The notes: a model not told the origin generated them from the sequence alone. DNA of 64,000 bases from a virus (IMGVR_UViG_3300037882_003354:124001-188000), one strand, 5' to 3'; shown: positions 20,798-64,000, counted from the stretch's first letter. A program made the numbers and translations.

Positions 20798-21150
20798 TTT
20801 TGACTGTCCCCCGGCATCACTCGATAATTATCCTCCACAGAATCAGGTGTGCTGACTTCTATGATGGTGCCTGCCTGCAAGCAGGTGATACGATGCGGTA
20901 CCAGTGGATCATTATGATGAACACCACCTTCCCCGACAATTTTCTTATTCACTTTGGCAGTTAGGGTGTCAATGACTTCAATTTCAAACAGGCCACTCAG
21001 CACATACCAAGTTTCTTCTTTTTCAGAATGAAAGTGCATGCTAAACTTGCTGCCTGTATTGAAGTTAAGGAACTTGCTGCAATATTTGTCGTTGGTGACC
21101 CAGATGAGTTCTGAACCCCAGCCCTTTTCAACTTTTCCGTCTAATCTCAT
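20794..21150 (-). CDS. Cupin-fold protein, sugar-isomerase-like
   Basis: 118 residues forming one cupin barrel. Metal ligands are visible: His39 and His41 in MHFHSEKEETWYVLSG, and a later His in VPHRI. EKGWGSELIW resembles mannose-6-phosphate isomerase and dTDP-sugar epimerase-like cupins. It overlaps the cytidylyltransferase gene by four bases and belongs to the same sugar module; substrate unknown. Confidence 0.75.
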   Translation of the reverse strand: MRLDGKVEKGWGSELIWVTNDKYCSKFLNFNTGSKFSMHFHSEKEETWYVLSGLFEIEVIDTLTAKVNKKIVGEGGVHHNDPLVPHRITCLQAGTIIEVSTPDSVEDNYRVMPGDSQK

Positions 21151-47807: not shown

Positions 47808-48260
47808 TTAAATGCTCATTAAATGCGACATTTTTGGGTTATTTGCAATATAGGCACCAATTATTTTTGCCCAACTCTCAGCATCTTTCTCTTTGACACG
47901 AAAGTCGTAGTTTGTTGGCGGCACAAAAACACGATTGGTATCCTCAAATCTACCTTCCTTGATGGTGTCCATCCAGATGGTCCAGTGAGCGTCAAGGTTT
48001 GTCCTCATCTCAATCAAGGGCGCTACGAAATCGCAAACCACAAAATCTTTTTTTGACGCATCAGCCAATTCCCGCATGCGCAGACTCTGACGTATGCGTC
48101 CTTGGTGGCTGAAATCCCAATCGTTGTATTGTTCACGAACAACATCAGCATTTAACCATAATACATTAGGAACAAGCCCGGCTACGAGCAGCGCGGCCAG
48201 TGTGGTCTTGCCTGAGCCTGGTAGACCCAGTATTAGTATTCGTGTTGGCGTTTTAATCAT
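47808..48260 (-). CDS. APS kinase-like P-loop protein
   Basis: 150 residues from the ATG at 48260. P-loop GLPGSGKT (12-19), then LWLNADVVREQYNDWDFSHQGRIRQSLRMRELADAS, which follows the CysC layout (LDxDxxR...GFSxxxRxxNxRR), and DFVAPLIEMR near residue 90. APS kinases add the 3' phosphate that makes PAPS, the donor used by sulfotransferases. Two sulfotransferase genes stand in the same operon, which supports the assignment. Some residues of the usual lid differ, so another small-molecule kinase is possible. Confidence 0.7.
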   Translation of the reverse strand: MIKTPTRILILGLPGSGKTTLAALLVAGLVPNVLWLNADVVREQYNDWDFSHQGRIRQSLRMRELADASKKDFVVCDFVAPLIEMRTNLDAHWTIWMDTIKEGRFEDTNRVFVPPTNYDFRVKEKDAESWAKIIGAYIANNPKMSHLMSI

Positions 48261-48283
48261 GATGACAGTTCCATGTGTGGTGG

Positions 48284-49147
48284 TCAAAGCCGACGATTGC
48301 TCAAGACAACTTTGATGGCCTTGGCAAAAGAGAATGAGTTCAACAAATCTTGTAGTTGATATTTTGCAATCACTGGAGAACCAACACCACCCACCAGACA
48401 AAGATTGGCTAGATCGTCTCCCCATTTTTCCGCAAATACATCGAAGTACTTTTGATTGCGTTGATTAATTTGTTGTTGATGTTCAGGACCTGCCCAGGTG
48501 CTCTTGCCGGCAAAGTGCAATATATAACTGTGACTGTAGTATTTTACCGGAAAATTATGGGAGATGGCGCGTATGCGATAGTCCACATCTTCGCCCCCGC
48601 CCACACCAAACCTCTCATCAAACAATCCCACTTGGTTGTACACCGTGGCAGGCAATACAAATGCATAAAAACCCATCAACAGGCGTTCGAAAAATCCCGA
48701 CCGCAGCCGGTCCCGGTGTGCCTGAGCAATCTTGCACAGATCAGCATATTGATTGTTATACTCATCCAGGTTCATGGTCTGCTGCAAGGTCAGTTGACCG
48801 CTGGCGTACAAATGAGTTTGGTTGCAACTGGGCATCACAATGGCATCTGGATGTTGCGTCAGTTCATGGGACCAGCCGGGGGTGAATACGATGTCGTTGT
48901 TGAGCACAATCAGAGTTCTGCCACGCGCAATGCCAATCATGTTGTTGACATTCTTGGCAAAACTCTGGGGTGTTGTATTGGATATCACGCTGGCTTGAGT
49001 GTCGTATGTGCCCTCGTTATCATTGTCAATCAGGTACACCTCATCCCCTGTGCCCAGCCGTGTGCTGCTAAAAAAAGAATCCAGGGCAAGTTTTGTGTAA
49101 AAATTAGAACCCCGGGTGGTGATCATGACGTATACATTGCCCATCAT
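48284..49147 (-). CDS. Glycosyltransferase, GT2-like
   Basis: 287 residues, GT-A fold. VMITTRGSNFYTKLALDSFFSS and YLIDNDNEG open the nucleotide-sugar domain, LIVLNNDIVF supplies the metal-binding acidic pair, and FDERFGVGGGEDVDYRIRA is the typical acceptor-side motif. The front resembles GT2 enzymes that extend surface glycans. It starts in an ATGA overlap with the sulfotransferase gene. Confidence 0.82.
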   Translation of the reverse strand: MMGNVYVMITTRGSNFYTKLALDSFFSSTRLGTGDEVYLIDNDNEGTYDTQASVISNTTPQSFAKNVNNMIGIARGRTLIVLNNDIVFTPGWSHELTQHPDAIVMPSCNQTHLYASGQLTLQQTMNLDEYNNQYADLCKIAQAHRDRLRSGFFERLLMGFYAFVLPATVYNQVGLFDERFGVGGGEDVDYRIRAISHNFPVKYYSHSYILHFAGKSTWAGPEHQQQINQRNQKYFDVFAEKWGDDLANLCLVGGVGSPVIAKYQLQDLLNSFSFAKAIKVVLSNRRL

Positions 49148-49944
49148 TTTTTATTCCAAAAATCCAAACTCAACGATCGATAGTATTCGGTCAATTCTGT
49201 TCCAATCACTTGTTCAGCAGGTGGACTGGCTCGTTTTAATTCCGGCCTAATGTCATGCAAGCCCATCAATCCATATGCTCGATCATTTTCTGGTTTGGGA
49301 GTCAGGTGCGCATGATTGAGATTGATAGAATTTGGTATTTCTAAAAAATCAAATATTCTACCCACGGTTGTCACAGAGTTTTCCACAATGTCACCATAGT
49401 CTAAAAACAACATGCTGGTGGGAGCATACTCCCAACCCAATTTTAAACTGGTCCATGGGATGTTGATATACTTTTCCCATAATAGTCTGCATCTATTTTG
49501 ATTGTTCACCGGCTTGTTTGTGTCAATTAACTCTTGATCAATATATGTGATCGTGTGGTTGTTTCTTTCTATTAACAGAATAAAACTGCTGAGAATTTCT
49601 GGAATGTCTCTGACTGTGCAGATGATCTTGGGCGGCTGGCCGTGTAGCTCGGTTAGAAACTTTATATGCCGCGGCCACTCTCTGTGTTTATCTATGATGT
49701 TGGTCTGGGCAACATGCCGGTAACTGGATTCAAATACTCCGTGGACAATGTTGTTCAACTGTCTGGGATCTTGATCCACCAGATGGCCAGTGATACCTGG
49801 CCACCTGTTTTTGATGACATTAATAAGATCCAACACTGGGCTGGTGGTGGTAGTGTAAACATCGGGATGCTGACTCAGCATGCTGGCCAACACCGTGCTA
49901 CCGCTTCTGGGCAGACCCGATATCATGAACACACGTTTATCCAT
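49144..49944 (-). CDS. Sulfotransferase family protein, copy 1
   Basis: 266 residues from the ATG at 49944. FMISGLPRSGSTVLASML (residues 6-23) is the PAPS 5'-phosphosulfate loop, and IICTVRDIPEILSS is the 3'-phosphate-binding segment with its Arg. Acceptor unknown, likely a sugar given the neighbours. Overlaps the glycosyltransferase genes on both sides. A paralogue lies at 52997-53821. Confidence 0.82.
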   Translation of the reverse strand: MDKRVFMISGLPRSGSTVLASMLSQHPDVYTTTTSPVLDLINVIKNRWPGITGHLVDQDPRQLNNIVHGVFESSYRHVAQTNIIDKHREWPRHIKFLTELHGQPPKIICTVRDIPEILSSFILLIERNNHTITYIDQELIDTNKPVNNQNRCRLLWEKYINIPWTSLKLGWEYAPTSMLFLDYGDIVENSVTTVGRIFDFLEIPNSINLNHAHLTPKPENDRAYGLMGLHDIRPELKRASPPAEQVIGTELTEYYRSLSLDFWNKK

Positions 49945-50857
49945 ATGCCCGTATGGTGTTAAAAAATTGTTGCCATTCCAATTTACGCTGTTCCCAGGAC
50001 CAATAGTGATTGTAATGTGTGGACTGGCGATGTATGTGGTATTGAGTGCTGACCTTCCAATACTCTGCAATGGCCAAATCTAGTTCCCGCGCAAATCTAG
50101 ATGCCAATACCTGGCGATGGTTTAGACCCACCGGAACCATGCGTGCCCAATCGCTGCATGTTTCAGGCAATGCACCATGGCTGGTGGTCACCTGCAGGCA
50201 GCCGGCGGCGGCAGCTTCTATGGCTGCCAGGCAACTGGTTTCTTCAAAAATACTGGGATATGCAAATACATGCGCTTGTTGCAATGCTGCCCTGACCACA
50301 TCGTTGGGTTGATATTCGTGGAAATTTACACCAGGTGTGTTTTTTGTACGTTTAAATATTTCGTCAAACCTGCCCTGGGTTATTTTTACAAAATGATCCC
50401 CGTATATTTTGGCACTGCTGTACACATCGAGTTCAATGTCTGTTCGATCCAGTAACTCAACTGCATCTAACAATATGTCCAGACCACGCCAGGGGGTGCT
50501 GGTGTAGATCAACTTGGTCTTGCCTTCACATCTGGGCATGAACTGTATGGGCTCAATGGCATTTTTTATGACAATACTCTTGTATGCCGGTACATTGAAC
50601 ACTTGACAAAATTTATTGTACTGCCAGTGACTGACAAATACAAAATAATCCACACGTTCTATAAACACTGGATTGGACATCAGTGCCACTTGTTCTTCGT
50701 TGGTGTTCAAGTGTTGCCATACCACATTGATCTTGTTGGGGTCAATTTTTGCATGATCGCACGAACTCAAGATCAGGTTCACTCGGTCCTGCCAGTCGGT
50801 GCCCACATGTTTTAACATGTTGAAATACAGTATCTCACTGCCGCCCATGGGATTCAT
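49937..50857 (-). CDS. Glycosyltransferase, GT4-like (GT-B)
   Basis: 306 residues. KNAIEPIQFMPR, then YTSTPWRGLDILLDAVELL and YPSIFEETSCLAAIEAAAAGCLQVTT, contain the E-x7-E donor site of GT4 enzymes. The GT-B N-terminal half is shorter than usual (start MNPMGGSEILYFNM). Overlaps its neighbours by 4 and 8 bases. Confidence 0.85.
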   Translation of the reverse strand: MNPMGGSEILYFNMLKHVGTDWQDRVNLILSSCDHAKIDPNKINVVWQHLNTNEEQVALMSNPVFIERVDYFVFVSHWQYNKFCQVFNVPAYKSIVIKNAIEPIQFMPRCEGKTKLIYTSTPWRGLDILLDAVELLDRTDIELDVYSSAKIYGDHFVKITQGRFDEIFKRTKNTPGVNFHEYQPNDVVRAALQQAHVFAYPSIFEETSCLAAIEAAAAGCLQVTTSHGALPETCSDWARMVPVGLNHRQVLASRFARELDLAIAEYWKVSTQYHIHRQSTHYNHYWSWEQRKLEWQQFFNTIRAYG

Positions 50858-51504
50858 AGACTCTCCGCAAATTTCATCAGGGTATCGTATATCTTGACCT
50901 TGGGTTTGAGCATACGATAAATGGGATTTTCCAGACGCTCACGGGCCTTTTGCCCCTTGCCAGTCAACACCAGCACAGGCGTGGCGCCTGCTCGCTCGGC
51001 CATGGTTAGGTCTTCTATGGTGTCGCCAACATAGGCGCCGCCGGCTATTTTGACGCCAGGACTGTTATTTTCCGCATGTTTAAACAGTCCCAGATTGGGC
51101 TTGGCATAAACATCATCCTTGCGTGAACTGGTGTTGTACCAGATGCCATCTATGCTGGTGCATCCTGCCTGCCCCAGCAAATTCAACATGTGCCGGTTGC
51201 AATCTTCCACTTGCTCCACAGTGACCTTTCGGTGACTTACACTGGGCTGATCATATAAGAAAAGCACCCGGTGTCCCTTGCTGCGTATGATGGCAACAGC
51301 ACGAAATGCATCTGCTATGGGAATAAATTTGTCAGGACCAGTTATTGCATCATGACATTCGCACACCACACCGTCCCTGTCCAGAGCAATGGTGAATTTA
51401 TCAAAAGTCGCCGGCATGACCAGGGCAGTAGATGTTGCAATACCGGAGTTCTCGCTCACCGCGGCATTGGGCAACATGTTTTTGTCAACACTAAATCTGC
51501 CCAT
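50854..51504 (-). CDS. HAD phosphatase, GmhB-like
   Basis: 216 residues. DxD motif in IALDRDGVVCE (Asp42, Asp44), a middle KPNLGLFKHA and C-terminal GGAYVGDTIEDLTMAERAGATPVLV, the order seen in heptose 1,7-bisphosphate phosphatase (GmhB/HisB-type). The Cys-rich zinc loop of GmhB is not evident. The N-terminal 35 residues are extra. Together with the HldD- and HldE-like genes it points to heptose synthesis. Confidence 0.72.
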   Translation of the reverse strand: MGRFSVDKNMLPNAAVSENSGIATSTALVMPATFDKFTIALDRDGVVCECHDAITGPDKFIPIADAFRAVAIIRSKGHRVLFLYDQPSVSHRKVTVEQVEDCNRHMLNLLGQAGCTSIDGIWYNTSSRKDDVYAKPNLGLFKHAENNSPGVKIAGGAYVGDTIEDLTMAERAGATPVLVLTGKGQKARERLENPIYRMLKPKVKIYDTLMKFAESL

Positions 51505-51507
51505 GAT

Positions 51508-52233
51508 TTACTCGTATAGTGATTTAATATCTTGCGGCGTGGAGACACGTTGTTTTATACCATCCAGCCATCCTGGGAAATCAGCAGTGAACAAATTGTT
51601 GGTGTTTTGTGAACAGGTGGTGGTGGGCCATGCCCAGATGTCTATGCCCAGGTCCTTGAGTTTGTTGCACAGCACCTGACTCTCATTAAAGAATCTGCCG
51701 TATTGTGTCTGATGCTCAAATACCACCTTGACATCATTGTTGTTTTCATCTGTGATGGAGACGTTGCTGTTCATCAAGGCTTGAATCACAGGCCGGTCCA
51801 GCTTCATGCAGGCTGTGCTGGCATAGGAAACTTTAAGGAATCCCTGCTGATCAAACTGCAGATTGGATTTGTCAAAATCAATGTCATATATCACACTGTT
51901 GGTCTTCTTGCTGATCACTGGCAGCACCACCACCGGCAGGTCAGACATCATGATTCGAACCATTTCATTGGCATCCCAGGCCAGATCATGATCAACAAAC
52001 ACCAGGCTGTCCACTTCCTGCTCAAATGCTATCTTGAGCAAATCGTTTTTTGCCATGGGAACAGACCGATCGTTGCCGATGAAAACCGGTATCACTGTGA
52101 TGCCCACGCTCATGGCAGACTTGATGGTGTCTGACAGACTGTGTACATAGAATACATCAAGTTTACTTTCCCGGGCCACAGTGGCCAGGATTACAAGTTT
52201 GGATTTTAGTGCTGTGTTATTTGGTGTCATCAT
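51508..52233 (-). CDS. Glycosyltransferase-like protein, GT-A type
   Basis: 241 residues. SKLDVFYVHSLSDTIKSAMSVGI, then KNDLLKIAFEQEVDSLVFVDHDLAWD, contain the acidic metal site; the layout parallels its neighbour at 52230-53000 (related by duplication, though diverged). It lacks some usual acceptor motifs. Overlaps that neighbour by four bases. Confidence 0.68.
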   Translation of the reverse strand: MMTPNNTALKSKLVILATVARESKLDVFYVHSLSDTIKSAMSVGITVIPVFIGNDRSVPMAKNDLLKIAFEQEVDSLVFVDHDLAWDANEMVRIMMSDLPVVVLPVISKKTNSVIYDIDFDKSNLQFDQQGFLKVSYASTACMKLDRPVIQALMNSNVSITDENNNDVKVVFEHQTQYGRFFNESQVLCNKLKDLGIDIWAWPTTTCSQNTNNLFTADFPGWLDGIKQRVSTPQDIKSLYE

Positions 52234-53000
52234 ATGCCTTTGTTGTTGATATATCTATTGAGGTAGTTGTTGCCGTAACTGGTGCGGGCGGCTGGTGGTG
52301 TTTGTGTTGTAGCAGGTGTGGCGGTGGGTCTGGTCTTGGCCAGCCAGGCATCAAAGTTTCCAGTGTACTTTTTAAATCCAATATGGTTGCAGGTGATGCT
52401 GGTGTCCAACCAGGTTTTAAATCCCAGTTGTTTGAGTTTTCTGCACAGGTGGATGTCTTCGCTGATCAAGCCGCCATTTTCCACAACCACCTCGAACACC
52501 CAGCGTCGGTCTTTGTTTTGGTCCAATTCCACATACACTGGACTGGCATCCCATATGGCATCCACTGCACGACGACTGAACCTGAGAAAACCAGTGCCTA
52601 GCCCATCAACCTCCAATAAATTGGTCACAGGGTCCTTGGCAGCGTATGGATCATCCATCTTGGCCACATATAGTTCAGTCTCACCCTTCTTGGGGTAAGT
52701 GCCGCCCACAATGTCCACGGGATAATTTAACAGTCGGTAGAACCATTCAGGTTCCCACTCAATGTCATTGTCGATGAATATGATGTCGTCGCAATCCAGT
52801 TCCCTGACCAGAGCAATAGTGTCGTTTCTGGCTCTTTGTACCAGGGCATCATAACTGACCCAGATGGGGATGATTTCCACATTCATCTCTGCGGCTAGTT
52901 TGACGGTGTTGACCAGACTGTTCACATACCATACATCAATGCTGCCATCATAGCAGGGTGTTCCCACCATGACTCGTCTTTTCTTTTTTATTTCCATCAT
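52230..53000 (-). CDS. Glycosyltransferase, GT-A type
   Basis: 256 residues. VMVGTPCYDGSIDVWYVNSL, RARNDTIALVRELDCDDIIFIDNDIEW and YPVDIVGGTYPKK are the standard pattern of phage-encoded GT-A enzymes. The C-terminal 40 residues are Thr/Pro-rich and disordered. I chose the ATG at 53000, which overlaps the previous stop; one at 53009 would add three residues. Confidence 0.78.
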   Translation of the reverse strand: MMEIKKKRRVMVGTPCYDGSIDVWYVNSLVNTVKLAAEMNVEIIPIWVSYDALVQRARNDTIALVRELDCDDIIFIDNDIEWEPEWFYRLLNYPVDIVGGTYPKKGETELYVAKMDDPYAAKDPVTNLLEVDGLGTGFLRFSRRAVDAIWDASPVYVELDQNKDRRWVFEVVVENGGLISEDIHLCRKLKQLGFKTWLDTSITCNHIGFKKYTGNFDAWLAKTRPTATPATTQTPPAARTSYGNNYLNRYINNKGI

Positions 53001-53821
53001 GCCATCCATAACATTTGTCGCTTGATATGGTCAAAATCATATTTCCAAAAACTGCTGGTCACATATGTTTGCCATAGGTCTGCAGGAATAATGGGCTTCC
53101 TGGCCTTATATTCTACACGACGACGAACAGTATGTAAACCAGAAATATTGGCCTGCTGATCAAATTCGTCGTAACTGTCTTCCACATTTTCAAAGTCGTG
53201 TTCAAACCAGGGTTCATTGATAAACTTATAAATTTGTTGCATGGTTTCCCTGGGACGTTTGGTCAACACATCATAATCCACCACACACAACATGTCTTTT
53301 TCGTTGCCATACATGGCTTGCTTGGTACAAGCAATGGGGCCGCTGACGTAACCACCGCCACCATCCTGGCTCATCAGCATGTTCACTCGATTGAACACCG
53401 TGGGCAGGTCCTGATGCTGAAACAATGCCTTGATGGTGTAGGGATTCCTGGCGTTCAACTGCTCGAAACTGTCCAGAATCCAGGGCACATCCCTAATGCA
53501 CACTATGATCTTGCTGGCGGGAAACAAGTCGCGCACCATGGGCGTTTGTGCACACCAGGCTCGATTGGTGTTAAAGCAAACCTCAGGTCCACCTTGGTAA
53601 AATGTGGAAAATAATCCGCGTATCAATGCTGCCCGTTTTTCCACAGGAACTGCCGACTCCATGCCCACTGCGGTGTGCGTCACTTGCAGTATGTTCCTGG
53701 AATAATCCTGCAATGGGTCAGAAATACTTGCATGAAACCTGGGGTTTTGTTTCAATATGGCACTGAGCAAGGTGGACCCACTGCGTGGAAGTCCGGATAT
53801 GAAGTGATATTTTTGCATCAT
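52997..53821 (-). CDS. Sulfotransferase family protein, copy 2
   Basis: 274 residues. HFISGLPRSGSTLLSAIL (6-23) and KIIVCIRDVPWILDSFEQL match the PAPS-binding loops of copy 1, as does the general order of motifs. The acceptor is unknown. It is translationally linked to the carbamoyltransferase gene by an ATGA overlap. Confidence 0.84.
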   Translation of the reverse strand: MMQKYHFISGLPRSGSTLLSAILKQNPRFHASISDPLQDYSRNILQVTHTAVGMESAVPVEKRAALIRGLFSTFYQGGPEVCFNTNRAWCAQTPMVRDLFPASKIIVCIRDVPWILDSFEQLNARNPYTIKALFQHQDLPTVFNRVNMLMSQDGGGGYVSGPIACTKQAMYGNEKDMLCVVDYDVLTKRPRETMQQIYKFINEPWFEHDFENVEDSYDEFDQQANISGLHTVRRRVEYKARKPIIPADLWQTYVTSSFWKYDFDHIKRQMLWMA

Positions 53822-55521
53822 TCTTTCACCAACAATTTACCCAGATCAGGCAGGTACAGATACTTTATATCCGACTTGAGCAGAGTGTTGATGGCGTCAA
53901 CCAGGGTTTCCACCAAGGGTTCCCCTGCCAGGTTGAAACTAGTGTTGAACACCATGGGAACCGATGTCCGGGTATAAAATGCCTGGATCACAGCATGGTA
54001 ATGAGAGTTGTCCTGTGCGTTGACCGTCTGCACTCGACAGGTGCCATCCACATGAGTCACTGCCGGAATCTCACCCAGTTTGTCAGTGGCCACATCAATG
54101 GCGTACATCATGAATGGGCTGGATTTTAGACCTCGCATGTCAAACCAGGTGGCAGCCTGTTCTTCCAGTATGCTGGCAGCAAATGGTCTAAACCATTCCC
54201 GACCTTTAACACGGTTCACACGGTCCTTGCCATCTTGAACACGCGGATCAAACAACATGGATCGGTTGCCCAGTGCCCGGGGGCCGCCTTCTGCACGACC
54301 ACTAAACATGGCCACGATGTTTTGGGTGGCCAATAATTCTGCAACGTCGTCAGCCAGGGCATGTTGCATTTTAAGTTGCGGCACTTGTGCCAGCAACTGA
54401 TCCAACATCTGATAGTTGGGTTGTGCGCCCAGGTACACATGCTTGAGTGGTCTGACCACTGAGTCCTCACTGTGCAAATGCCAGGCCAGTCGTGCCAGCC
54501 CCAGTGCAGTTCCGCCGTCGTGGCTGATGGGATCCACATAGAGATTGATGTCTTTACATCTGTCCAGGAGGTAATAGTTGGCCACACAGTTGAGTGCATA
54601 CCCACCAGCCAAGACAACATTTTTAATGCCAGTGGCAGCCACTGCTCGTTCGATCAGGATGCCCAGGAGTTCCTGTGTTTCCTGTTGCACATGGAAGGCC
54701 AGGTCGCGGTCCATGTCGGTGACTTTACTGAAGTCCCAGTGCCATTCCTTGGGGTCTTGTTTGCGTCGTAGATCAGGGAATCTATCCTCATCAATAAATG
54801 CACCAGCAGGATACATGGGCAACAGCAGGTTTTTATTGCCGCGGCCTTCTACGAAAAATGCAGGGATGGCTGCGTTGCGTTTGCCATAAGGCGCCAGCCC
54901 CATGGTTTTGCCGGCTTCGATAAATCCAAAACCCAGATACTGACTGACTGCTTCGTATGCCTTGGTGATGGTGACGGAATTGTCAAATTCCTGCAGGCCA
55001 TTGTTGAAGTAGGGAGTGCGTCCGTCAGAATATCTCTTGTACAAGGGCTCAAATGCAGCTGGGTAACTGCACTTGTAGACACTTTCTGTCTCGTATCCGC
55101 CCACCGGTGTACCAGTACCGTCTGGACCTGTGGTGGTGGACACCATGCTGCCGGCACCGTCCACCACAATGGCCAGGGCTTCAGTAAATCCGCTGTTGTA
55201 GAACGCACCAGCGGCATGGCCCAGGTGATGTTGGTGTCCTAGATTGGTGACCTTGACACCAGGATTGAATTTACGCACCAGGGCCGAGTAACTGTCCTCA
55301 CCGGTCCAGGGCAAGATGGCCAGTTCTGGATTGGTGCCACCAATCACCAGTTCGTCAATACGGTGACTCTGCAGGCATTCCAGCATGGCACGGAAGGGAT
55401 TGCCGTCATATTTCATGCGACTCAGTCGTTCTTCTTCTGAATAATAAACCACTTCACCGTCCACCACCAGGCATGCGCTGCCATTGTGGCCGGGATTTAT
55501 AGCAAGTATTGAATACGTCAT
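53818..55521 (-). CDS. Carbamoyltransferase, NodU/CmcH family
   Basis: 567 residues, usual family length. N-terminal Kae1-like domain with ILAINPGHNGSACLV (8-18 His/Asn) and HQHHLGHAAGAFYNSGF, VVDGAGS, and then the C-terminal motifs GRAEGGPRALGNRSML and VFNTSFNLAGEPLVETL. Enzymes of this family transfer a carbamoyl group from carbamoyl phosphate, through carbamoyl-AMP, to a hydroxyl on a sugar or similar acceptor. Here the acceptor is probably the glycan made by the neighbouring transferases. Confidence 0.9.
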   Translation of the reverse strand: MTYSILAINPGHNGSACLVVDGEVVYYSEEERLSRMKYDGNPFRAMLECLQSHRIDELVIGGTNPELAILPWTGEDSYSALVRKFNPGVKVTNLGHQHHLGHAAGAFYNSGFTEALAIVVDGAGSMVSTTTGPDGTGTPVGGYETESVYKCSYPAAFEPLYKRYSDGRTPYFNNGLQEFDNSVTITKAYEAVSQYLGFGFIEAGKTMGLAPYGKRNAAIPAFFVEGRGNKNLLLPMYPAGAFIDEDRFPDLRRKQDPKEWHWDFSKVTDMDRDLAFHVQQETQELLGILIERAVAATGIKNVVLAGGYALNCVANYYLLDRCKDINLYVDPISHDGGTALGLARLAWHLHSEDSVVRPLKHVYLGAQPNYQMLDQLLAQVPQLKMQHALADDVAELLATQNIVAMFSGRAEGGPRALGNRSMLFDPRVQDGKDRVNRVKGREWFRPFAASILEEQAATWFDMRGLKSSPFMMYAIDVATDKLGEIPAVTHVDGTCRVQTVNAQDNSHYHAVIQAFYTRTSVPMVFNTSFNLAGEPLVETLVDAINTLLKSDIKYLYLPDLGKLLVKE

Positions 55522-56459
55522 TATTTCACCTGTTTTTCTATGTCTGCGACAATCCGGTTGTAGATGTCCACAATCTCAGCCTCGTCAAAATCCATCATGC
55601 GATCATTATGGCGGTCTGCCAGTGTGCTGTCCAGACCAGTGATGCGTATGGGGCTGTATTTCTTCTCACCGGCTTTTTCTATGATCTGGAAAAAGTCAGG
55701 ATAACTGGTGTTCACAGGAAAGGTGGATCCAAAAATCACAGTGCCTGGCGTGTCAGTGGCCCGGGCCATGTGCTGTCCCACGGAATCCACACCCACAAAA
55801 TAATCAGCACAATCAATCAGGGCTGCCCACATGCGCAGGTCAGTGTTGGGTTGTAACTTGGCTGTGTATGTGTCTGTGACAATCTGGAATTGTTGTTCGC
55901 CAAAGAACACCATGTTGTATTTGGCTGCCAGTTTTTTCACCAGACTGATGTAAGCATCTGCTGACAGACTGCGACTGGCCGGATCCACCACGTCTGACCG
56001 ATCCAGAGTGGCACCGCGACCGAACGGCTGTATGACTATGGTCTTGTTCTTCTGCTGTGCCTGCTTGACGTCGGCAATGGTGTTGGCGGCCCATTTTTCT
56101 TCAGCCTTGTTGAATATCAACTTGGGTATGGTTAGATCACTGTGATCAGTGGTCATGTTGATCTCGCGATCAAAACCTTCCACCAGGCTGATTTCCTGTC
56201 GGAAATAGGCAGGCAGTCGGTAGGGCTCGGGTGTTAGAATACGATCTGCCTGTGACACCACGTTGTCCCAGAGCCCCTTGGTGTCGGCTCCGTAGGTCCG
56301 GTCCTGTAGTTCGGGTATGCTCCACAACAGGTAATCCCAGGCTGGAATGATGATGTTCCAGTCGGCACCAGGGTTCAGTCGGTGAAATTTCAGCAGGGCG
56401 GGAATGGCTGCAATCACTCGGCCAGCCCCGCCGTCTATGTAAATTATGGTCTTTGACAC
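55521..56459 (-). CDS. Glycosyltransferase, GT9 heptosyltransferase-like
   Basis: 312 residues. IDGGAGRVIAAIPALLKFH at the start is the GT9 acceptor-side loop, KTIVIQPFGRGATLDRSD the linker, and YFVGVDSVGQHMARATDTPGTVIFGST the donor site typical of heptosyltransferase-like enzymes. The start codon appears to be GTG, after AAGAGGATCCAAC. First gene of the glycan operon. Confidence 0.75.
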   Translation of the reverse strand: MSKTIIYIDGGAGRVIAAIPALLKFHRLNPGADWNIIIPAWDYLLWSIPELQDRTYGADTKGLWDNVVSQADRILTPEPYRLPAYFRQEISLVEGFDREINMTTDHSDLTIPKLIFNKAEEKWAANTIADVKQAQQKNKTIVIQPFGRGATLDRSDVVDPASRSLSADAYISLVKKLAAKYNMVFFGEQQFQIVTDTYTAKLQPNTDLRMWAALIDCADYFVGVDSVGQHMARATDTPGTVIFGSTFPVNTSYPDFFQIIEKAGEKKYSPIRITGLDSTLADRHNDRMMDFDEAEIVDIYNRIVADIEKQVK

Positions 56460-56474
56460 GTTGGATCCTCTTGA

Positions 56475-56500
56475 GTATATACTTAATGTATATACTTAAT
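56475..56500 (-). repeat. Two tandem 13-bp repeats at the operon head
   Basis: GTATATACTTAAT at 56475-56487 and 56488-56500. They lie 16 bases before the first glycan gene and may be a promoter or operator; a TTAAGTATATAC read is given on the minus strand. No standard promoter of either class is clear here. Confidence 0.6.
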
Positions 56501-56527
56501 TATCCTGTGTCAATGGCGATGCATGAT

Positions 56528-59119
56528 TTATTTGGTGGTCATCAATGTTTCAAGTTGTTGTTCAAGATTGTGTATTTTGATGTCTAGATCCTGAATGGCC
56601 TTGACCATGATGGGCATGAGTTTGCCAGGATCAGCATATAACTGTTCTGGATTAGCATCATGCGCCAGTCGTATGTGGTCTTGAACTCCATATTTCTTGA
56701 TCAATTCCAACAGGTCTTGAGCCAGGAATCCTGAATCTGGTATACCCGTTCTGTTGCCATCGCGAGTGGCCCAGGTGAATTGTACTGGTTTGACTTCCTT
56801 GATGAAATCCAGACCCACTGGTATGCCACTGATGCCAGTTTTATCTCGACAATCTGACAGGGATGTCCAGGTGGCACTGGGTGCATATTGGCTGGTGTAT
56901 GCGGTGGTTCCCAGCACTATACTATTGCATGATGTGGTGGTTGGCGCTGCTGCCAGATGGCCTATGATGATGTTGCTGCACCCCACAGTCAATGTGACGC
57001 CTGCACCTGCACCCAGTGCAATATTACCGCCCGATCCGTTTGAATTATACAACGCACAGCAACCAATGGCTATGTTGTTACATCCAGTGCGGTTGTTGGA
57101 CAGTGCGCAAATACCAATGGCCACGTTGTTGTTGCCAGTGGTGTTGCCATACATGGCACGTTCGCCCACCATGAAGTTATTGCAGGTAAGGATCGGCGAC
57201 GCCGTGCCGCCAACGGCGCGGCCAATGCCCACGTTGTTACATCCTCGAACGCATCGCATGGCGAACCGTCCAATGCCCACATTGGCATCACCATAAACGT
57301 ACGCGAGTGCACTCCAGCCAATGGCCACGTTGTCACTTCCTGTTGCCTGGAGCATGGCATATGGACCAATGGCCACATTACAACATCCATTAATCAGGTT
57401 TCCCATGGTAGACTGGCCGATGCCTACATTTAAAGCCGCAGCCACCGCACTTGATAGAGCACTATCACCTATGGCCACGTTACCATAACCACCCACCTGA
57501 CTGCATAATGCATTGGATCCAATGGCTATACCTCCACCGCCGTAAGTACTGGCCGCTAATGCACCTGCTCCCAGTGCCACATTGTTGCTGCCATTTATCA
57601 ATCCGGCCAGTGACTTGCACCCAATGCCTATGTTGCCAGTGCCGTAATTATAGCCATATTCTGCATCGCCTGTTCTTCTTAAATTATATAATGAACATAT
57701 GCCTGCAGAAAAATTGCTGTTGTTTCCATAATCATTACAGTATTGTGATTTGTATCCCTGAGCAAAATTCTCACTGCTTGATATGTTATTATACATGGCC
57801 TGTTTACCCAGGGCCATGTTATTATTGCCAAAAGCGTTGTTGTATAACGAACAGTAACCCACTGCCAAATTATTAGAACCCGAACAGGCACTGTATAATG
57901 AATATGTTCCAATGGCTATATTGCAATTGCCAAACACGCTCTTGCACAAGGAATAGGCTCCCATGGCTATGTTATCGCAACCCAAATTGTTTCGTAATGC
58001 AAATGTGCCAAATGCAGTATTATTACATCCAGTAGAATTACCTCTGCCTGCAAGACATCCCATACTAGTGTTGTTGCATCCGGTAATGTCAGTATTGCCA
58101 GCAAGACATCCTATGTGGGTGTTGCCATTACCAGTGGTATAACCAAACACTGATCCCAATGACGTGGGTGTGGCTGGTGTACTGGCGCCTCCGCCTGCAC
58201 TGCCAGTATAGCCCACGCTTCCATTATATCCTGATCCAATTGAACCAGTGTATCCCACACCGCCAGTGAGCAGGGTGTTGTTGACATACAAGCCAGTGGC
58301 ATCAACTTTTATTCGTTCAGTGGTACCAGCACCTATCAACACGGTGTCTGACAGTCCTGCAGTGGCCGGCAACTGACCAATGATGGTGTTGTTGGCACCT
58401 GTGGTTAGAAGGCATCCTGCGCATGTACCAATGCCAATGTTATTGCTTGCATCTGAACATTTGAGTGACAGGTAACCAATGGCGATTGAACACTGGGGAG
58501 TCTGTCCATAAAAGAGAGAATTCACACCAAGGGCCACGTTGTTGTTTCCGCCATGATTGGAGTACAAGGCTCCGTACCCCATGGCCATGTTACAACTTCC
58601 GGTGTCGTTACAGTAGAGAGCGATAGCGCCAATGGCCGTGTTGACTGCGCCGCTGGTGTTAGCGCGTAGTGCATACGATCCCACCGCAGTATTTGCACTT
58701 CCCGATGAATTACCGATTAACGCACCGTAGCCCACGGCTGTGTTTTCTGTTCCCTGTTGGTTGCTATTCAGTGACAGTGAACCCACGGCTGTGTTGAAGG
58801 CGCCAATGGTGTTTTGTTCCAGTGACAGGTAGCCAATGGCAGTATTTTGGCGGCCGGTGGTATTGCCGTAGAGTGACTCGTAGCCAAGGGCCACATTACT
58901 ATAGCCACAGGTGTTATATGCAAGTGCGCGATTTCCAATGGCAACGTTACTATAACCATTGATATTACGTTGCAATGCACAGACACCTATGGCCACATTG
59001 TTCTGGGCGCTGACCGTCACGCTGGACAAGGCACATTGCCCCACGGCCACGTTGCCATTGAGTACGCTAGCACCCGTGATATCGGGGATAACGGTGTTAC
59101 CAGAGAGTTTTATTGCCAT
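56528..59119 (-). CDS. Tail fibre protein with 17-residue repeats and S74 domain
   Basis: 863 residues. After a short head (MAIKLSGNTVIPDITGASVL) come dozens of 17-residue repeats of the form N-x-A-x-G-x-x-A-L-x-x-N-x-x-G-x-x, a stacked beta-roll fold common in aquatic phage fibres. They are broken once by a spacer (TVLIGAGTTERIKVDATG, GSIGSGYNGSVGYTGSAGGG). From about residue 745 the C-terminus (DCRDKTGISGIPVGLDFIKE, GFLAQDLLELIKKYG) is a peptidase_S74 intramolecular chaperone, which helps trimer folding and usually cuts itself off. Start follows ATGGAGCAAAG. Confidence 0.87.
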   Translation of the reverse strand: MAIKLSGNTVIPDITGASVLNGNVAVGQCALSSVTVSAQNNVAIGVCALQRNINGYSNVAIGNRALAYNTCGYSNVALGYESLYGNTTGRQNTAIGYLSLEQNTIGAFNTAVGSLSLNSNQQGTENTAVGYGALIGNSSGSANTAVGSYALRANTSGAVNTAIGAIALYCNDTGSCNMAMGYGALYSNHGGNNNVALGVNSLFYGQTPQCSIAIGYLSLKCSDASNNIGIGTCAGCLLTTGANNTIIGQLPATAGLSDTVLIGAGTTERIKVDATGLYVNNTLLTGGVGYTGSIGSGYNGSVGYTGSAGGGASTPATPTSLGSVFGYTTGNGNTHIGCLAGNTDITGCNNTSMGCLAGRGNSTGCNNTAFGTFALRNNLGCDNIAMGAYSLCKSVFGNCNIAIGTYSLYSACSGSNNLAVGYCSLYNNAFGNNNMALGKQAMYNNISSSENFAQGYKSQYCNDYGNNSNFSAGICSLYNLRRTGDAEYGYNYGTGNIGIGCKSLAGLINGSNNVALGAGALAASTYGGGGIAIGSNALCSQVGGYGNVAIGDSALSSAVAAALNVGIGQSTMGNLINGCCNVAIGPYAMLQATGSDNVAIGWSALAYVYGDANVGIGRFAMRCVRGCNNVGIGRAVGGTASPILTCNNFMVGERAMYGNTTGNNNVAIGICALSNNRTGCNNIAIGCCALYNSNGSGGNIALGAGAGVTLTVGCSNIIIGHLAAAPTTTSCNSIVLGTTAYTSQYAPSATWTSLSDCRDKTGISGIPVGLDFIKEVKPVQFTWATRDGNRTGIPDSGFLAQDLLELIKKYGVQDHIRLAHDANPEQLYADPGKLMPIMVKAIQDLDIKIHNLEQQLETLMTTK

Positions 59120-59135: not shown

Positions 59136-59164
59136 CTTAATTAAAGTTCCGTCATGCTGCTCAT

Positions 59165-62100
59165 TTAGGAAAGTTTCTCGACCAGCGCATCTATCTGTGC
59201 CTGTTGCTGTTTGGCTGCTTCTATCAGGAAGGCTATTAAGGGCAAATAGTTGACCGTTTTGAAGTTTTCAGGGTTGGTATGCACCAATTCTGGCAAGGTC
59301 TGCTCAATTTCTTGAGCAATCACACCATAACTCTTGCGAGCCGTGTCACGCCAGTTGAAGCCCACCCCGCGCAGGCTGTTGATTACCATCATGGGATGCT
59401 GAATGGTCTCAATGTTGTCCTTGAGATTGCCGTCTGATGTGGAATTCAAGTCCACCACGGTCAGTTGACCAGTGCTGGGGTTGAAGGACAACTTGGAGGT
59501 GCTGATGTACGCAGTGGTCAGCGTGCCAGTGGTGGCTGACGACATGGTGGGGTAATAACTGGCGTTGGTGGCGGTGTCGTTGGTGACCGTGCTGGATCCG
59601 GAGCCGGTGAACAAACTACCGTTGACATACAAGCCTGAGCCATCAACTTTTATTCGTTCGGTGATACCTGCTCCGATCAACACGGTGTTTGACAGTCCGG
59701 GGTCACCTGATAGTGAACCAATCACAGTGTTGTTTGTGCCAGTGGTTATGCCTTGCCCGGCCTGGTAGCCGATGGCCACGTTGTTATAACCTGTGGTGTT
59801 ACCGTAGAGTGCAGCATAGCCCTGTGCCGTGTTGTTGCAGCCAATGGTGTTGTTATATAGTGCTGCATAGCCTTGCGCGGTGTTGCGCTTGCCAGTGGTG
59901 TTGACTATTAGTGTACTGTGACCCTGGGCAGTGTTGCCGTAACCGGTGGTGTTTTCGTAGAGTGAATCAGCGCCCACAGCAGTGTTGCTGTAACCGGTGG
60001 TATTATTTTGCAGTGAAGATACGCCAACTGCTGTGTTATAATTACCACAATTCAGATGTAATGAGCCATAACCCATGGCTGTGTTCGAGCTGCCGCCGAG
60101 GTTGTTACGCAGCGCGCAGGTGCCCACTGCCGTGTTGAAACTACCGGAGATGTTGGACTCAAGTGCACCCATGCCCACAGCGGTATTACAGCAACCAGTG
60201 GTGTTTTTACTCAGTGCGCAACTGCCTATGGCCACATTGGCGCATCCTATGGTGTTGCTATAGAGAGCACATGTACCCACGGCGGTGTTGAAACAACCGC
60301 GGGTGTTGTTATAAAGTGCACTGTGACCTTGGGCCGTGTTGTTGCAGCCAGTGGTATTGTTATTAAGTGCACTGTTACCCTGGGCAGTATTATTACTACC
60401 GCCGGTGTTGAGATTGAGCGCTCGGTGTCCCACCGCAGTATTAGTGTTGCCAGTAATGTTGCAGCATAGTGCACCCACTCCTTGTGCTGTGTTGTAGCTG
60501 CCAGTGGTGTTGTGGTACAGACTGTTGAAGCCCTGTGACGTGTTGTTGGTGCCGTCGGTATTGCTCAGTAGTGCGCTGGCACCGAATGCTGTGTTTGAAT
60601 CACCTCCACGGTTGGCATTGAGTGCCAGGGCGCCCACGGCTGTGTTGTAGCAGCCAGTGGTGTTGGATTGGAGTGCCAGAGTGCCAATGGCTGTGTTCCT
60701 GAAGCCCATGAGGTTGTTGCGCAGCGCCAGATATCCAATGGCTGTATTTTGATAACCTGTGGTGTTACAGCTCAGTGTTTCCAGTCCCACAGCCACATTG
60801 CCATCGCCAGTGGTGTTGTTGAACAGTGCACAAGTGCCCAGGGCCACATTGTGGATGCCCTGAGTGTTACCATATAGTGTTTTGAAACCCAGTGCAATGT
60901 TGCCGCATCCGGCATTGGCGCCGGCCGCCATGGCGAGAATGCCTATGGCTGTATTACAGCAGCCAGTGGTGTTGTTGGCCAGCGCACTGAGACCGATGGC
61001 TATATTGTAGCTGCCAGAGTTGTTTGACAGGGCTGTGGGTCCCATGCCAATATTATAACAACCGCCGTAGGAATTTATCATGGCATCAGCGCCAATGGCC
61101 ACATTATCGCTGCCGTAGGTGTTGTGGCCCAATGCTCTTGACCCCACCGCCACGTTGCTTCTACCAGTGTTGTTGGCACCTAGACGACCATAGAGTGCAC
61201 ACCACCCCATGGTGACATTATAGTCTCCTCCATGAAAATGCGATGTTTGAATACCCACGGCCACGTTGTAGCTGCCCGACTGATTGCAGAATAATGAACC
61301 AGCGCCCAGGGCAATGTTGTTACCTCCAGACACAGTGTTCAAGAGTGCATATGTTCCCACAGCTATGTTCTGACAATTGCTGGTACCTTGATGGCCGGCG
61401 CAGTAACCCAGGGACACATTGGGTGCGGGCTGGCCCGAAGCATGTGGAGGTCCTATGGGGGTACAAGCATATACGGTGCCCAATAACATGGTCTGGGCTT
61501 GTGGTGTGAGACCGGACAGCAGCCCACCGTTGATGTACAATCCGGCATCGTCCACACGCAGTCGCTCACAAGTGCCAGCACCAATCAGCAAGGTGCAGGT
61601 GAGACCAGGCGTGGCTGGCAATGATCCAATCACAGTGTTTTTAAAGCCAGTGGTCAGGTTGCAAGCTGCATTAAATCCAATGCCTATATTGCTCAGAGCA
61701 TTTGAACATTTCAGAGCACCCACTCCCACTGCCACTGCACAACGATTGCATGCGCCATAGAATAAAGAACATGTGCCAATGGCCACATTCACACAACCGG
61801 TGGTGTTGCCGTAGAGTGCAGTATAGCCCTGTGCCGTGTTGCCGCTACCGGTGGTGTTGTTCTGTAGTGCAGCATAGCCATGTGCCGTGTTGAGATCGCC
61901 AGCGGTGTTGCGGCCGAGTGCTTGGGCGCCTACTGCTGTGTTGGTGCCGCCGGTGGTGTTGCTGCTGAGTGCGCCGTAACCAATTGCCACGTTTCGCTCG
62001 CCGGCGGTGTTGTTGAGCAGTGCTTGGTAACCCAGAGCACTGTTCAGACTGCCAAGGGTGTTTGAGTATAGTGCAGAGTTGCCAATGGCCACGTTGTTGT

Positions 62101-64000
62101 CGCCGGTGGTGTTACTGCGCAGTGAATCGGAACCCAGGGCAATATTACCGAATCCCGCAGTGTTTAAGGTCATGGCCAGACTTCCAATGGCTATATTTTT
62201 ACAGCCAGCGGTGTTGCTACACAATGCACGTTTGCCTATGGCCGTGTTTTCATTGCCATGTGTATTTCTGAACAGTGCTCGCTCACCAATGGCTATATTG
62301 TCGCAGCCGGTGACATTGCCGTAGAGTGCTCGGTATCCCTGGGCCACATTGTTGTTGCCGAGAGTGTTCAGTGCCAGAGACTGGTGCCCCTGGGCAATGT
62401 TATTGACACCTGTGGTATTGCTGCATAATGTGCATGCACCGATGGCCACATTGCGGTTGCCCTGGGTATTGGCAGTTAAAGCCTGATGACCCAGTGCTGT
62501 GTTAAACGAACCTTGGACGTTGGATTTTAACGAGTTGCATCCAATGGCTATGTTGTGTGATCCTGTTGTGTTGGCTGTTAGACCATAGGCTCCCAGTGCC
62601 ACGTTGCCACCGCCGTCGGTGTTGCTGACCAATGCGCATCTGCCCAGCACCAGGTTGTCCTGGCCGGTCTGCGTCATGTTACCCGAGCAAAAGCCCACAC
62701 TGATGTTGCCTAGGTTTGATGTGGTATATGCATACACCGCGCCCAGTACCACTGGTGTGGCTGCTGTGGATGTGCTACCAGCACCCCCTCCAGTAAATGG
62801 GCTACCGTTGATGTATAATCCGGTGTCATCAACCTTGATACGCTCGGTGGTCCCTGCACCAATCAACACCGTGCCCACGCAATCAGCAGCGGCTGGCAGA
62901 CTGCCAATCACAGTGTTGTTCACACCAGTGGTTATGGAACAGCCTGCCAGGGCGCCCACGGCTAGGTTGCCGCCGGTGGCATTGGCATTAAAGAGTGCGC
63001 GGCATCCCACGGCTGTGCTGTTGCAGCCAGTGGTGTTGCTTTTGAGTGCCCAGGTGCCCAGGGCTGTATTATTGTCACCAACAGTGTTGCTGCACATGGC
63101 TCGATAACCCTGTGCAACGTTGAAATTACCATCCCTATTTTTGTGTAGCGCATCGTAACCGATGGCCACGTTCAAGTTGCCAGTGGAGTTGCACCTCAGT
63201 GCATTTGCACCCAGGGCCACGTTGGCTTGGCCCGTGGTGTTGTCCAAGAGGGCATTCCAGCCCACAGCCACGTTAGATTGACCCGTGGTGTTGTTGTAGA
63301 GTGCACCGTAGCCCAGCGCAGTGTTCTGACTGCCAATGGTGTTTTCGCGCAGTGTACCGGCACCCACGGCTGTATTTTCCACTCCCACAGTGTTAGCGTA
63401 GAGTGCCCTGCTGCCCACAGCCACGTTGTCGTAGCCATTGGTGTTGCTGTAGAGTGCTGTGTAACCCTGGGCCGTGTTGCCCACGCCGGTGGTGTTGCCG
63501 TAGAGTGCTTGATAACCCTGGGCAGTATTGTTAATACCGCTGGTGTTGTTGGCCAGCGCGGCATTGCCCACGGCTATGTTGTTGTAGCCGGTGGTGTTGC
63601 CGTAGAGTGCATTCATACCTAGAGCAGTGTTGCCGGTGCCCATGGTGTTGTTGGTAAGTGCCGCCCGTCCAATGGCTGTATTGCCGTATCCTGCTGTGTT
63701 GCAGGTGAGTGCGCGATCGCCCACAGCAGTGTTCTGGCAACCGGTGGTGTTACGGTAGAGTGCACCGTAGCCCTGAGCTGTGTTATTACAGCCGGTGGTG
63801 TTGCAGAACAGTGCCAGTGTACCCTGAGCGGTGTTATTACAGCCGGTGGTATTTTTACACAGCGCCATGGCTCCCAGGGCCGTGTTGCATTGGCCAAAGG
63901 TATTACCATAGAGTGCTTGATGGCCCACGGCTACATTATAACAACCAGTGGTGTTGCATTTGAGTGCCAGTGATCCAATGGCCAGATTGCAACTGCCCAG
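59165..64000 (-). CDS. Giant tail fibre protein, N-terminus outside the window
   Basis: At least 1611 residues; the frame stays open through the right edge, so the apparent start at 63928 (a GTG inside a repeat) is not real. It consists of about 70 repeats of 17 residues (51 bp), split into blocks that each end with a module like TVIGSLPAAADCVGTVLIGA, GTTERIKVDDTGLYINGSPF and a Gly-rich spacer (seen near 62900-62750, 61630-61500 and 59720-59590). The last 110 residues (DGNLKDNIETIQHPMMVINS, GVIAQEIEQTLPELV) are an S74 chaperone. Part of the tail that touches the host. Confidence 0.88.
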   Translation of the reverse strand: MGSCNLAIGSLALKCNTTGCYNVAVGHQALYGNTFGQCNTALGAMALCKNTTGCNNTAQGTLALFCNTTGCNNTAQGYGALYRNTTGCQNTAVGDRALTCNTAGYGNTAIGRAALTNNTMGTGNTALGMNALYGNTTGYNNIAVGNAALANNTSGINNTAQGYQALYGNTTGVGNTAQGYTALYSNTNGYDNVAVGSRALYANTVGVENTAVGAGTLRENTIGSQNTALGYGALYNNTTGQSNVAVGWNALLDNTTGQANVALGANALRCNSTGNLNVAIGYDALHKNRDGNFNVAQGYRAMCSNTVGDNNTALGTWALKSNTTGCNSTAVGCRALFNANATGGNLAVGALAGCSITTGVNNTVIGSLPAAADCVGTVLIGAGTTERIKVDDTGLYINGSPFTGGGAGSTSTAATPVVLGAVYAYTTSNLGNISVGFCSGNMTQTGQDNLVLGRCALVSNTDGGGNVALGAYGLTANTTGSHNIAIGCNSLKSNVQGSFNTALGHQALTANTQGNRNVAIGACTLCSNTTGVNNIAQGHQSLALNTLGNNNVAQGYRALYGNVTGCDNIAIGERALFRNTHGNENTAIGKRALCSNTAGCKNIAIGSLAMTLNTAGFGNIALGSDSLRSNTTGDNNVAIGNSALYSNTLGSLNSALGYQALLNNTAGERNVAIGYGALSSNTTGGTNTAVGAQALGRNTAGDLNTAHGYAALQNNTTGSGNTAQGYTALYGNTTGCVNVAIGTCSLFYGACNRCAVAVGVGALKCSNALSNIGIGFNAACNLTTGFKNTVIGSLPATPGLTCTLLIGAGTCERLRVDDAGLYINGGLLSGLTPQAQTMLLGTVYACTPIGPPHASGQPAPNVSLGYCAGHQGTSNCQNIAVGTYALLNTVSGGNNIALGAGSLFCNQSGSYNVAVGIQTSHFHGGDYNVTMGWCALYGRLGANNTGRSNVAVGSRALGHNTYGSDNVAIGADAMINSYGGCYNIGMGPTALSNNSGSYNIAIGLSALANNTTGCCNTAIGILAMAAGANAGCGNIALGFKTLYGNTQGIHNVALGTCALFNNTTGDGNVAVGLETLSCNTTGYQNTAIGYLALRNNLMGFRNTAIGTLALQSNTTGCYNTAVGALALNANRGGDSNTAFGASALLSNTDGTNNTSQGFNSLYHNTTGSYNTAQGVGALCCNITGNTNTAVGHRALNLNTGGSNNTAQGNSALNNNTTGCNNTAQGHSALYNNTRGCFNTAVGTCALYSNTIGCANVAIGSCALSKNTTGCCNTAVGMGALESNISGSFNTAVGTCALRNNLGGSSNTAMGYGSLHLNCGNYNTAVGVSSLQNNTTGYSNTAVGADSLYENTTGYGNTAQGHSTLIVNTTGKRNTAQGYAALYNNTIGCNNTAQGYAALYGNTTGYNNVAIGYQAGQGITTGTNNTVIGSLSGDPGLSNTVLIGAGITERIKVDGSGLYVNGSLFTGSGSSTVTNDTATNASYYPTMSSATTGTLTTAYISTSKLSFNPSTGQLTVVDLNSTSDGNLKDNIETIQHPMMVINSLRGVGFNWRDTARKSYGVIAQEIEQTLPELVHTNPENFKTVNYLPLIAFLIEAAKQQQAQIDALVEKLS

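Follow-up and report, generated by a model that had tools for sequence, protein, structure and literature searches.

What do ten adjoining glycan genes do in a virus, and on which molecule would their product be placed? The question is raised by positions 47808-56459 of a 64,000-nucleotide stretch of viral DNA (IMGVR_UViG_3300037882_003354:124001-188000, hereafter the window), which corresponds to G000:C1:124001-188000 in a virus record of 322,512 bases. Judged by the gene content of the window, with a gp41 helicase, UvsX/gp32-type proteins (read from the sequence) and a gp15 profile match, the record is a T4-like jumbo phage, and its terminase is nearest to those of PA5oct-like Pseudomonas jumbo phages (55% identity). 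The original prediction saw here a glycan pathway with heptose, carbamoyl and sulfate functions that is linked to the fibre genes, and this is supported by families, motifs and synteny. I consider it probable that the operon covers transfer and tailoring, one half of a virion glycosylation system which would place phage-made heptose on the phage's own fibres and then extend, carbamoylate and sulfate it. Gene content, motifs, folds, synteny and co-occurrence are the observations; from them I infer all of the chemistry, which protein serves as acceptor, the linkage to Cys and what the glycan does for the phage. The ten genes, in the order in which they are transcribed (56459 to 47808), are as follows (PAPS, 3'-phosphoadenosine 5'-phosphosulfate; APS, adenosine 5'-phosphosulfate).

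55521-56459, minus strand: GT9-family glycosyltransferase that begins with GTG, has the ADP-heptosyltransferase fold and forms the module's conserved hub
53818-55521, minus strand: O-carbamoyltransferase (CarbT) of the NodU/CmcH/TobZ family (PF02543, 7e-20; PF16861, 1e-59)
52997-53821, minus strand: PAPS-dependent sulfotransferase 1 (ST1), a core gene (Sulfotransfer_3, 2e-14)
52230-53009, minus strand: GT-A-type glycosyltransferase a (phrog_1574, 1e-24) with the DxD-like motif FIDNDIEW, kept in most close relatives
51508-52233, minus strand: GT-A-type glycosyltransferase b, a weak call (phrog_1574, 2e-4) with a VDHD motif, homologous to gene a (tblastn)
50854-51504, minus strand: GmhB-like HAD phosphatase with a conserved N-terminal MGRF tag (PRK08942, GmhB/HAD-IIIA, 4e-22)
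49937-50857, minus strand: GT4-family glycosyltransferase, conserved (Glyco_trans_1_4, 8e-12)
49144-49944, minus strand: PAPS-dependent sulfotransferase 2 (ST2), a variable gene with the same PAPS motifs, start set at 49944 (Sulfotransfer_3, 9e-16)
48284-49147, minus strand: GT2-family glycosyltransferase, a variable gene (Glyco_tranf_2_3, 1e-6; L008 homologue, 43%)
47808-48260, minus strand: APS-kinase-like P-loop kinase (PF01583, 1e-6; best PDB match of the family profile adenylyl-sulfate kinase 2yvu, 1e-10)

According to the listing of open reading frames (ORFs) and a review of start sites, the junctions measure, in nucleotides, -1 (GT9/CarbT), -4 (CarbT/ST1), -13 (ST1/GT-A a), -4 (GT-A a/GT-A b), +3 (GT-A b/HAD), -4 (HAD/GT4), -8 (GT4/ST2), -4 (ST2/GT2) and +23 (GT2/APS-kinase-like), matching the overlapping or near-abutting minus-strand genes and the 23-base gap before the APS-kinase-like gene that had been described. 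Nearly all family calls hold in profile searches as well (Pfam, PHROG, NCBIfam/PRK); the weakest are the APS-kinase call and the GT-A pair, for which the basis consists only of phrog_1574, weak Pfam scores and DxD-like motifs.

Megablast found zero matches to the operon among phage records, and protein-level searches were therefore used. The search with GT9 found seven close contigs and an alignment search a further 80 loci; relatives number at least 579 overall. In the close relatives the core GT9-CarbT-ST-GT-A-HAD-GT4-APSK adjoins nudix-gp15-gp14-gp13, with the HAD gene inverted in four of the seven contigs and ST2 and GT2 variably present; GT9 and CarbT are about 60-84% identical among them, with motifs intact. 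Gene order in other phages had been proposed as a check, and since the order GT9-CarbT-ST-(GT-A/HAD/GT4)-APSK recurs in related contigs by nudix-gp15-gp14-gp13, and CarbT follows GT9 in 70 of the 85 loci with room for it, the grouping is not due to chance. A single block GT9-CarbT-GmhB-HldEC-HldEN-cupin-HldD is present in eight loci (L066, L068, L070-72, L074, L078 and L079). The cyanophages P-SSM2, S-SSM7, Sf-FS3 and S-CAM1 have an equivalent set placed between tail fibres and neck or other structural genes; in two of these phages it immediately precedes the neck genes. The upstream neighbours of GT9 in the loci match tail-fibre, fibre-assembly and baseplate PHROGs.

In the window, too, the operon is preceded in transcription by fibre genes, which lie on the same strand at a distance of 68 bases and encode the proposed acceptors.

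56528-59119, minus strand: short fibre of 863 aa with 3.9% Cys, 17-residue repeats and an S74 chaperone domain (PF13884, 3e-7)
59165-64000, minus strand, continuing beyond the window: long fibre of about 2,300 aa, of which the 1,611 aa in the window contain 3.5% Cys

The Cys content of these fibres (3.5-3.9%) compares with about 1.1% in the remaining genome, and it follows the presence of GT9. Among fibres with this type of repeat, the 14 from phages that bear GT9 contain 2.2-6.2% Cys, against 0.16-0.68% in five for which no GT9 was seen, its absence being taken from the organisms in the GT9 search listing and a separate look at LR756500; the Ser/Thr content is alike in both groups. For loci with at least 3 kb upstream of GT9, an upstream ORF has at least 3% Cys in 54 of 75 and at least 5% in 44 of 75, reaching about 12%, while most other proteins in the listed loci have about 0-2%. 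The four cyanophages named above encode such Cys-rich proteins beside GT9, whereas the whole genomes of P-SSM4 and S-SM1, which lack GT9, contain no Cys-rich fibre, and homologues of two Cys-rich adhesins, sought in 50,697 phage records, are confined to phages with GT9 and to further contigs from the same single cell. Aeromonas phage HJ05 and Vibrio phage K479 carry a GT9 of about 28% identity and no carbamoyltransferase annotated nearby; the gene adjoining GT9 encodes 4.1% and 2.4% Cys, respectively, against 0-0.5% in most other structural proteins. The Pelagibacter phages HTVC111P/112P, whose fibres have 1.5-1.9% Cys and whose fibre gene is immediately followed by that of a diverged GT9-like enzyme (L130:3621-4502, L134:3417-4298; hhalign E 4e-7), were classed as intermediate and not as GT9-negative. 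A model of the fibre repeats (AlphaFold2, pLDDT 88) is a beta-solenoid without a significant fold match in the PDB, for which reason the surface exposure of Cys was judged from repeat variability only. In the 90 repeats of the window fibres, Cys occurs chiefly at positions -2 (21 times) and +6 (14 times), where it alternates with Ser, Asn, Tyr, Arg and Gln; the conserved core almost never carries Cys, and the residues are scattered and do not form fixed pairs.

The abnormal Cys richness of the proteins encoded beside GT9, and the match of the GT9 neighbours to tail-fibre, fibre-assembly and baseplate families, favour the virion as the target. A third argument comes from the host: the lipopolysaccharide (LPS) of Synechococcus WH8102 contains neither heptose nor 3-deoxy-D-manno-octulosonic acid (KDO) (PMC4515613), while Sf-FS3, which infects this strain, keeps its heptose cluster.

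The enzyme at the hub of the module matches PF01075 (2e-8; 34.2 bits against a curated cut-off of 22) and phrog_8954 (9e-75). As a PDB sequence search with the GT9 profile gave no match, a structure model was made (AlphaFold2, pLDDT 95), and its top 30 Foldseek matches are all GT9 heptosyltransferase-family structures, including WaaF, WaaC and TibC. The donor motif D(S/T)xxxxH is kept: D225 and H230 do not vary and correspond in the alignment to D261/H266 of WaaC. G12-D13 of WaaC/WaaF, which does not vary within the E. coli set, aligns with G13-R14 of the phage enzyme, and Arg14 is invariant in 49 phage sequences. D13 of E. coli WaaC is the catalytic Asp, and its replacement sets the phage enzyme, a GT9 relative whose active site is altered, apart from standard LPS heptosyltransferases. 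For TibC, the variant D110A is described as catalytically inactive (PMC4358343). With a thiol as acceptor, a missing general base would make sense, although other residues could take its place, and the point is no more than suggestive. The protein has 312 aa and a single Cys, and the catalytic fold begins at its N-terminus; the four-Cys iron finger and the N-terminal beta-barrel of TibC/AAH (BAHT) are both absent.

The heptose arm of the pathway is incomplete within the ten genes and needs two further places in the same genome, 19608-21150 of the window and G000:259669-260406.

19608-20384, minus strand: HldD homologue, ADP-glyceromanno-heptose 6-epimerase, outside the operon (TIGR02197, 1e-74)
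20381-20797, minus strand: HldE-C homologue, heptose-1-phosphate adenylyltransferase (TIGR02199, 8e-29)
20794-21150, minus strand: cupin, proposed isomerase in place of GmhA (Cupin_2, 3e-5; MannoseP_isomer, 9e-5)
G000:259669-260406: HldE-type kinase (HldE-N; TIGR02198, 4e-40), about 80 kb away, found with cyanophage protein probes

For HldD, HldE-C and HldE-N the best NCBIfam match is a heptose enzyme in each case, with scores below the equivalog cut-offs (251 vs 274.6, 100 vs 181.5 and 138 vs 345 bits, respectively). The HAD protein scores 27 bits against the GmhB model TIGR00213 (cut-off 149.6), and relatives score higher; the top PDB matches of its family profile are GmhB (4pnh, 2e-25; 2gmw, 4e-24), the family sits within ADP-heptose clusters of other phages, and none of the Zn-binding Cys ligands of GmhB is seen in the family alignment. 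GmhA (TIGR00441) is absent from the whole record, with a positive control. Thus the genome holds, by sequence, a candidate for each ADP-heptose step except GmhA, which the cupin may replace: the conversion of sedoheptulose 7-phosphate to manno-heptose is a chemical analogue of the phosphomannose isomerase reaction, which some cupins perform, and the gene is located in the heptose block. Its HxH..E..H ligands are largely conserved, and it is also found inside the heptose blocks of relatives. Searches for HldD and the kinase in related jumbo contigs gave generic epimerases only and no kinase, so that a universal heptose arm is not claimed.

Two side observations concern these enzymes. An N-terminal M-[GSA]-R-[FY] tag is present in 21 of 23 GmhB-like HAD proteins and 13 of 32 Cys-rich adhesins, against one of 557 other ORFs (L063:7546-9441, L104:1273-2862, L112:4315-5925, L088:8075-8944, and HAD genes such as window:50854-51504); as it persists where the HAD protein has lost its catalytic Asp (L104-L112), this protein may share a docking partner with the adhesin or be part of the virion. 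Furthermore, the label 'phosphoheptose isomerase' in cyanophages (L024:22015-22359, L025:22711-23046) is probably wrong, as the 110-aa product is HAD-like and is hit by a model for capsule-biosynthesis phosphatases (EcbF/BcbF-like).

Both Pfam domains of CarbT score above cut-off, its PDB matches include the carbamoyltransferase 7xb6 (9e-78) and TobZ (5e-69), and it aligns across the core of TobZ and relatives. H12, H98, H102, D121 and D335 are present and invariant in the family alignment, the last four being presumably equivalent to the metal ligands of TobZ. In ST1 the GLPRSGST loop and R110..S118 are conserved; both sulfotransferases score above the Pfam cut-off and keep the PAPS motifs, namely the 5'-PSB loop and the 3'-PSB Arg/Ser, with G10, P12, R13, G15, R110 and S118 invariant in the family alignment. 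The APS-kinase-like protein exceeds the cut-off of PF01583 (29.1 vs 21.1 bits) and stays below that of TIGR00455 (20 vs 138.7), and ATP sulfurylase (PF01747) was not found in the genome. Some relatives (L002:7508-8302, L036:17227-18021, L051:13831-14682) carry a fused C-terminal nucleotidyltransferase domain (GRWQPWHxGHRALF...ISATKIR), reminiscent of a compact PAPS synthase, which the window copy lacks.

The proposed pathway would run as follows. The phage would make ADP-heptose by cupin isomerisation, phosphorylation by the 7-phosphate kinase HldE-N, and the successive action of the GmhB-like HAD protein, HldE-C and HldD. GT9 would transfer the heptose in the cytosol to the fibre proteins of the adjoining genes; numerous sites on the repeat surface are probable targets, and cysteine thiols possible ones. 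The GT4, GT-A and GT2 enzymes would extend the sugar, CarbT would cap hydroxyls with carbamoyl, and the two sulfotransferases would add sulfate from PAPS, to whose supply the APS-kinase-like protein could contribute. The fibres would thereby gain a coat of charged glycan, by which adsorption, stability or masking would be tuned. A more specific version I put forward only tentatively: a widespread phage GT9 family with changed acceptor chemistry might S-heptosylate Cys-rich fibres and adhesins, with the cupin standing in for GmhA, carbamoyl and sulfate added in the jumbo branch to give an anionic coat, and the M-[GSA]-R-[FY] tag of GmhB-like proteins and adhesins docking to a common partner.

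Several observations weigh against such fibre glycosylation or its Cys-linked form. To my knowledge, GT9 enzymes otherwise use LPS or Ser-rich adhesins as acceptors, and no precedent of S-heptosylation was found. The Cys richness of the fibres could instead reflect disulfides or metal binding, and the upstream fibres of L036 and L037 are Cys-poor (0.4%) despite a GT9 of 84% identity. The counts of GT9/Cys co-occurrence, made without phylogeny correction, are not independent by descent. Some HAD relatives (L104-L112) lack the catalytic Asp, and two close relatives (G001, 259 kb; G003, 353 kb) keep GT9 and HAD without a clear HldD or HldE kinase, so that the donor there may be host-derived or another sugar.

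The alternative that survives best retains glycosylation of the virion and differs in linkage: heptose would be attached to ordinary O-linked Ser/Thr/Tyr sites, and Cys would serve in disulfide or metal cross-linking. TibC, a fold match of the phage enzyme, heptosylates adhesin autotransporters (PMC4358343), and the fibre repeats are also rich in Ser, Thr, Tyr and Asn. However, it is Cys and not Ser/Thr that separates fibres with GT9 from those without, the scattered Cys positions lack the fixed pairs, and the iron finger and barrel of TibC are missing. I regard this variant as possible but somewhat doubtful.

Less likely still is remodelling of the host surface, in which LPS core heptose would receive carbamoyl and sulfate late in infection, blocking superinfection or aiding progeny release. 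The original prediction had left open whether the glycan is built on the virion or on the host, and the virion is now favoured. The pairing of GT9 and carbamoyltransferase is known from LPS, as the inner core of Pseudomonas carries an O-carbamoyl group on Hep II that is attributed to WapO (PMC8005017); the nearest terminase relatives infect Pseudomonas, and the cyanophage homologues are filed as LPS genes (PMC3037559). Yet cyanophages retain the GT9-CarbT-heptose cluster although Synechococcus LPS is heptose-free (PMC4515613), the module tracks the fibre genes and their Cys content, and the Asp common to LPS heptosyltransferases is replaced in the phage GT9.

Hypermodification of DNA, with the carbamoyltransferase acting on 5-hydroxymethylcytosine and glycosyltransferases decorating the DNA, seems to me very improbable. 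A metagenomic carbamoyltransferase does yield 5-carbamoyloxymethylcytosine, but DNA-modifying carbamoyltransferases accompany thymidylate synthases mostly with Asp177, and those of unmodified contigs are flanked by, for example, group 1 glycosyltransferases (PMC8670742), as here. The role is disfavoured because the genome's single thymidylate synthase has the canonical Asn (LGAPFN), and it is located far away. A pairing of CarbT with thymidylate synthase in S-RIM44 and Sf-FP1 was also inspected; the enzyme of S-RIM44 is ThyX, and the pairing looks incidental. Hardly credible is accessory cargo or headful 'stuffer' DNA without maintained function, left by Sullivan et al. 2010 as an open possibility for the cyanophage LPS genes (PMC3037559) and in keeping with the variable genes and the catalytic residues lost in some HAD relatives, since GT9 and CarbT keep 60-84% identity and intact motifs in close contigs, and gene order and co-occurrence are kept in many lineages.

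The original prediction knew of no described phage pathway with the full set. The core of GT9, CarbT and ADP-heptose genes does have precedents in P-SSM2, S-SSM7, S-CAM1 and Sf-FS3, where the genes carry LPS or hypothetical annotations, whereas the tier of sulfotransferases, APS-kinase and extra glycosyltransferases is less familiar. In these cyanophage 'LPS' clusters (T4-GC 302-308) GT9 is about 33-36% identical, CarbT is directly next (44-48%), HldE-C, a PfkB kinase, HAD, a cupin and HldD follow, and the cluster lies downstream of the tail fibres. They differ in that no sulfotransferase, APS-kinase or GT4/GT-A tier is listed, a 110-aa HAD replaces the GmhB-like one and 2-oxoglutarate (2OG) oxygenases are added in several, while in the window phage the heptose genes are split among three places. 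TibC/AAH is an analogue that works alike, with the GT9 fold, an ADP-heptose donor and a repetitive adhesin as substrate; the phage enzyme, at 312 aa, lacks finger and barrel, has Arg for the catalytic Asp and would act on a phage fibre instead of an autotransporter. WaaC/WaaF and WapO of the Pseudomonas LPS core likewise combine heptosyltransferase and NodU-type carbamoyltransferase to give O-carbamoyl heptose; in the phage the acceptor would be a fibre protein, sulfation is added and the extension enzymes differ. Mycobacteriophage capsid and tail glycosylation is similar in that phage-encoded glycosyltransferases act on virion proteins, but as far as I know it involves no phage-encoded ADP-heptose pathway, carbamoylation or sulfation. 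SunS-type enzymes, members of the GT2 family, likewise place the sugar on a Cys thiol, which is the linkage considered possible for the phage, and differ in their small bacteriocin substrate, hexose donor and glycosyltransferase family. These glycocin S-glycosyltransferases attach S-linked glucose to Cys (PMC6405829).

Between the fibre genes and the operon lies a short region in which no minus-strand terminator-like site was found.

56460-56527, minus strand: intergenic leader between fibre gene and operon, in which TTAAGTATATAC is present twice

Copies of the direct repeat TTAAGTATA stand at 56486 and 56499, both ahead of GT9, and at 59140 ahead of the short fibre gene; all are on the minus strand, and the plus strand has none. 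The leader with its TTAAGTATATAC copies is a possible promoter of a type common to the short fibre gene; a search for the T4-type late promoter TATAAATA found none near the operon. In relatives, ORFs resembling 2OG-Fe(II) oxygenases are frequent next to GT9 and fibre genes, as in cyanophages (L003:970-1539, L089:7672-8283, L104:9250-9873), and fibre hydroxylation is possible. Beyond the window, the same phage encodes more glycosyltransferase-like genes: a 1,540-aa multi-domain protein (G000:70479-75101), a second heptosyltransferase-like protein (G000:113062-113892) and a run of such genes following a 2,039-aa fibre-like ORF (G000:298529-306021).

The tie to Cys-rich fibres, together with the heptose-free LPS of the host, turns the open question of the cyanophage 'LPS' clusters into a direct test, namely for heptose on virion fibres. 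Related gene sets in dozens of other phages adjoin Cys-rich fibre genes, which suggests a form of virion glycosylation. If this is true, these phages would have a sugar-nucleotide pathway devoted to this purpose and would wear a tailored coat where the virion contacts the host, with relevance to adsorption and virion stability. The Cys linkage, if true, would be a new protein modification and would imply a glycosyltransferase activity that is new and useful to biotechnology.

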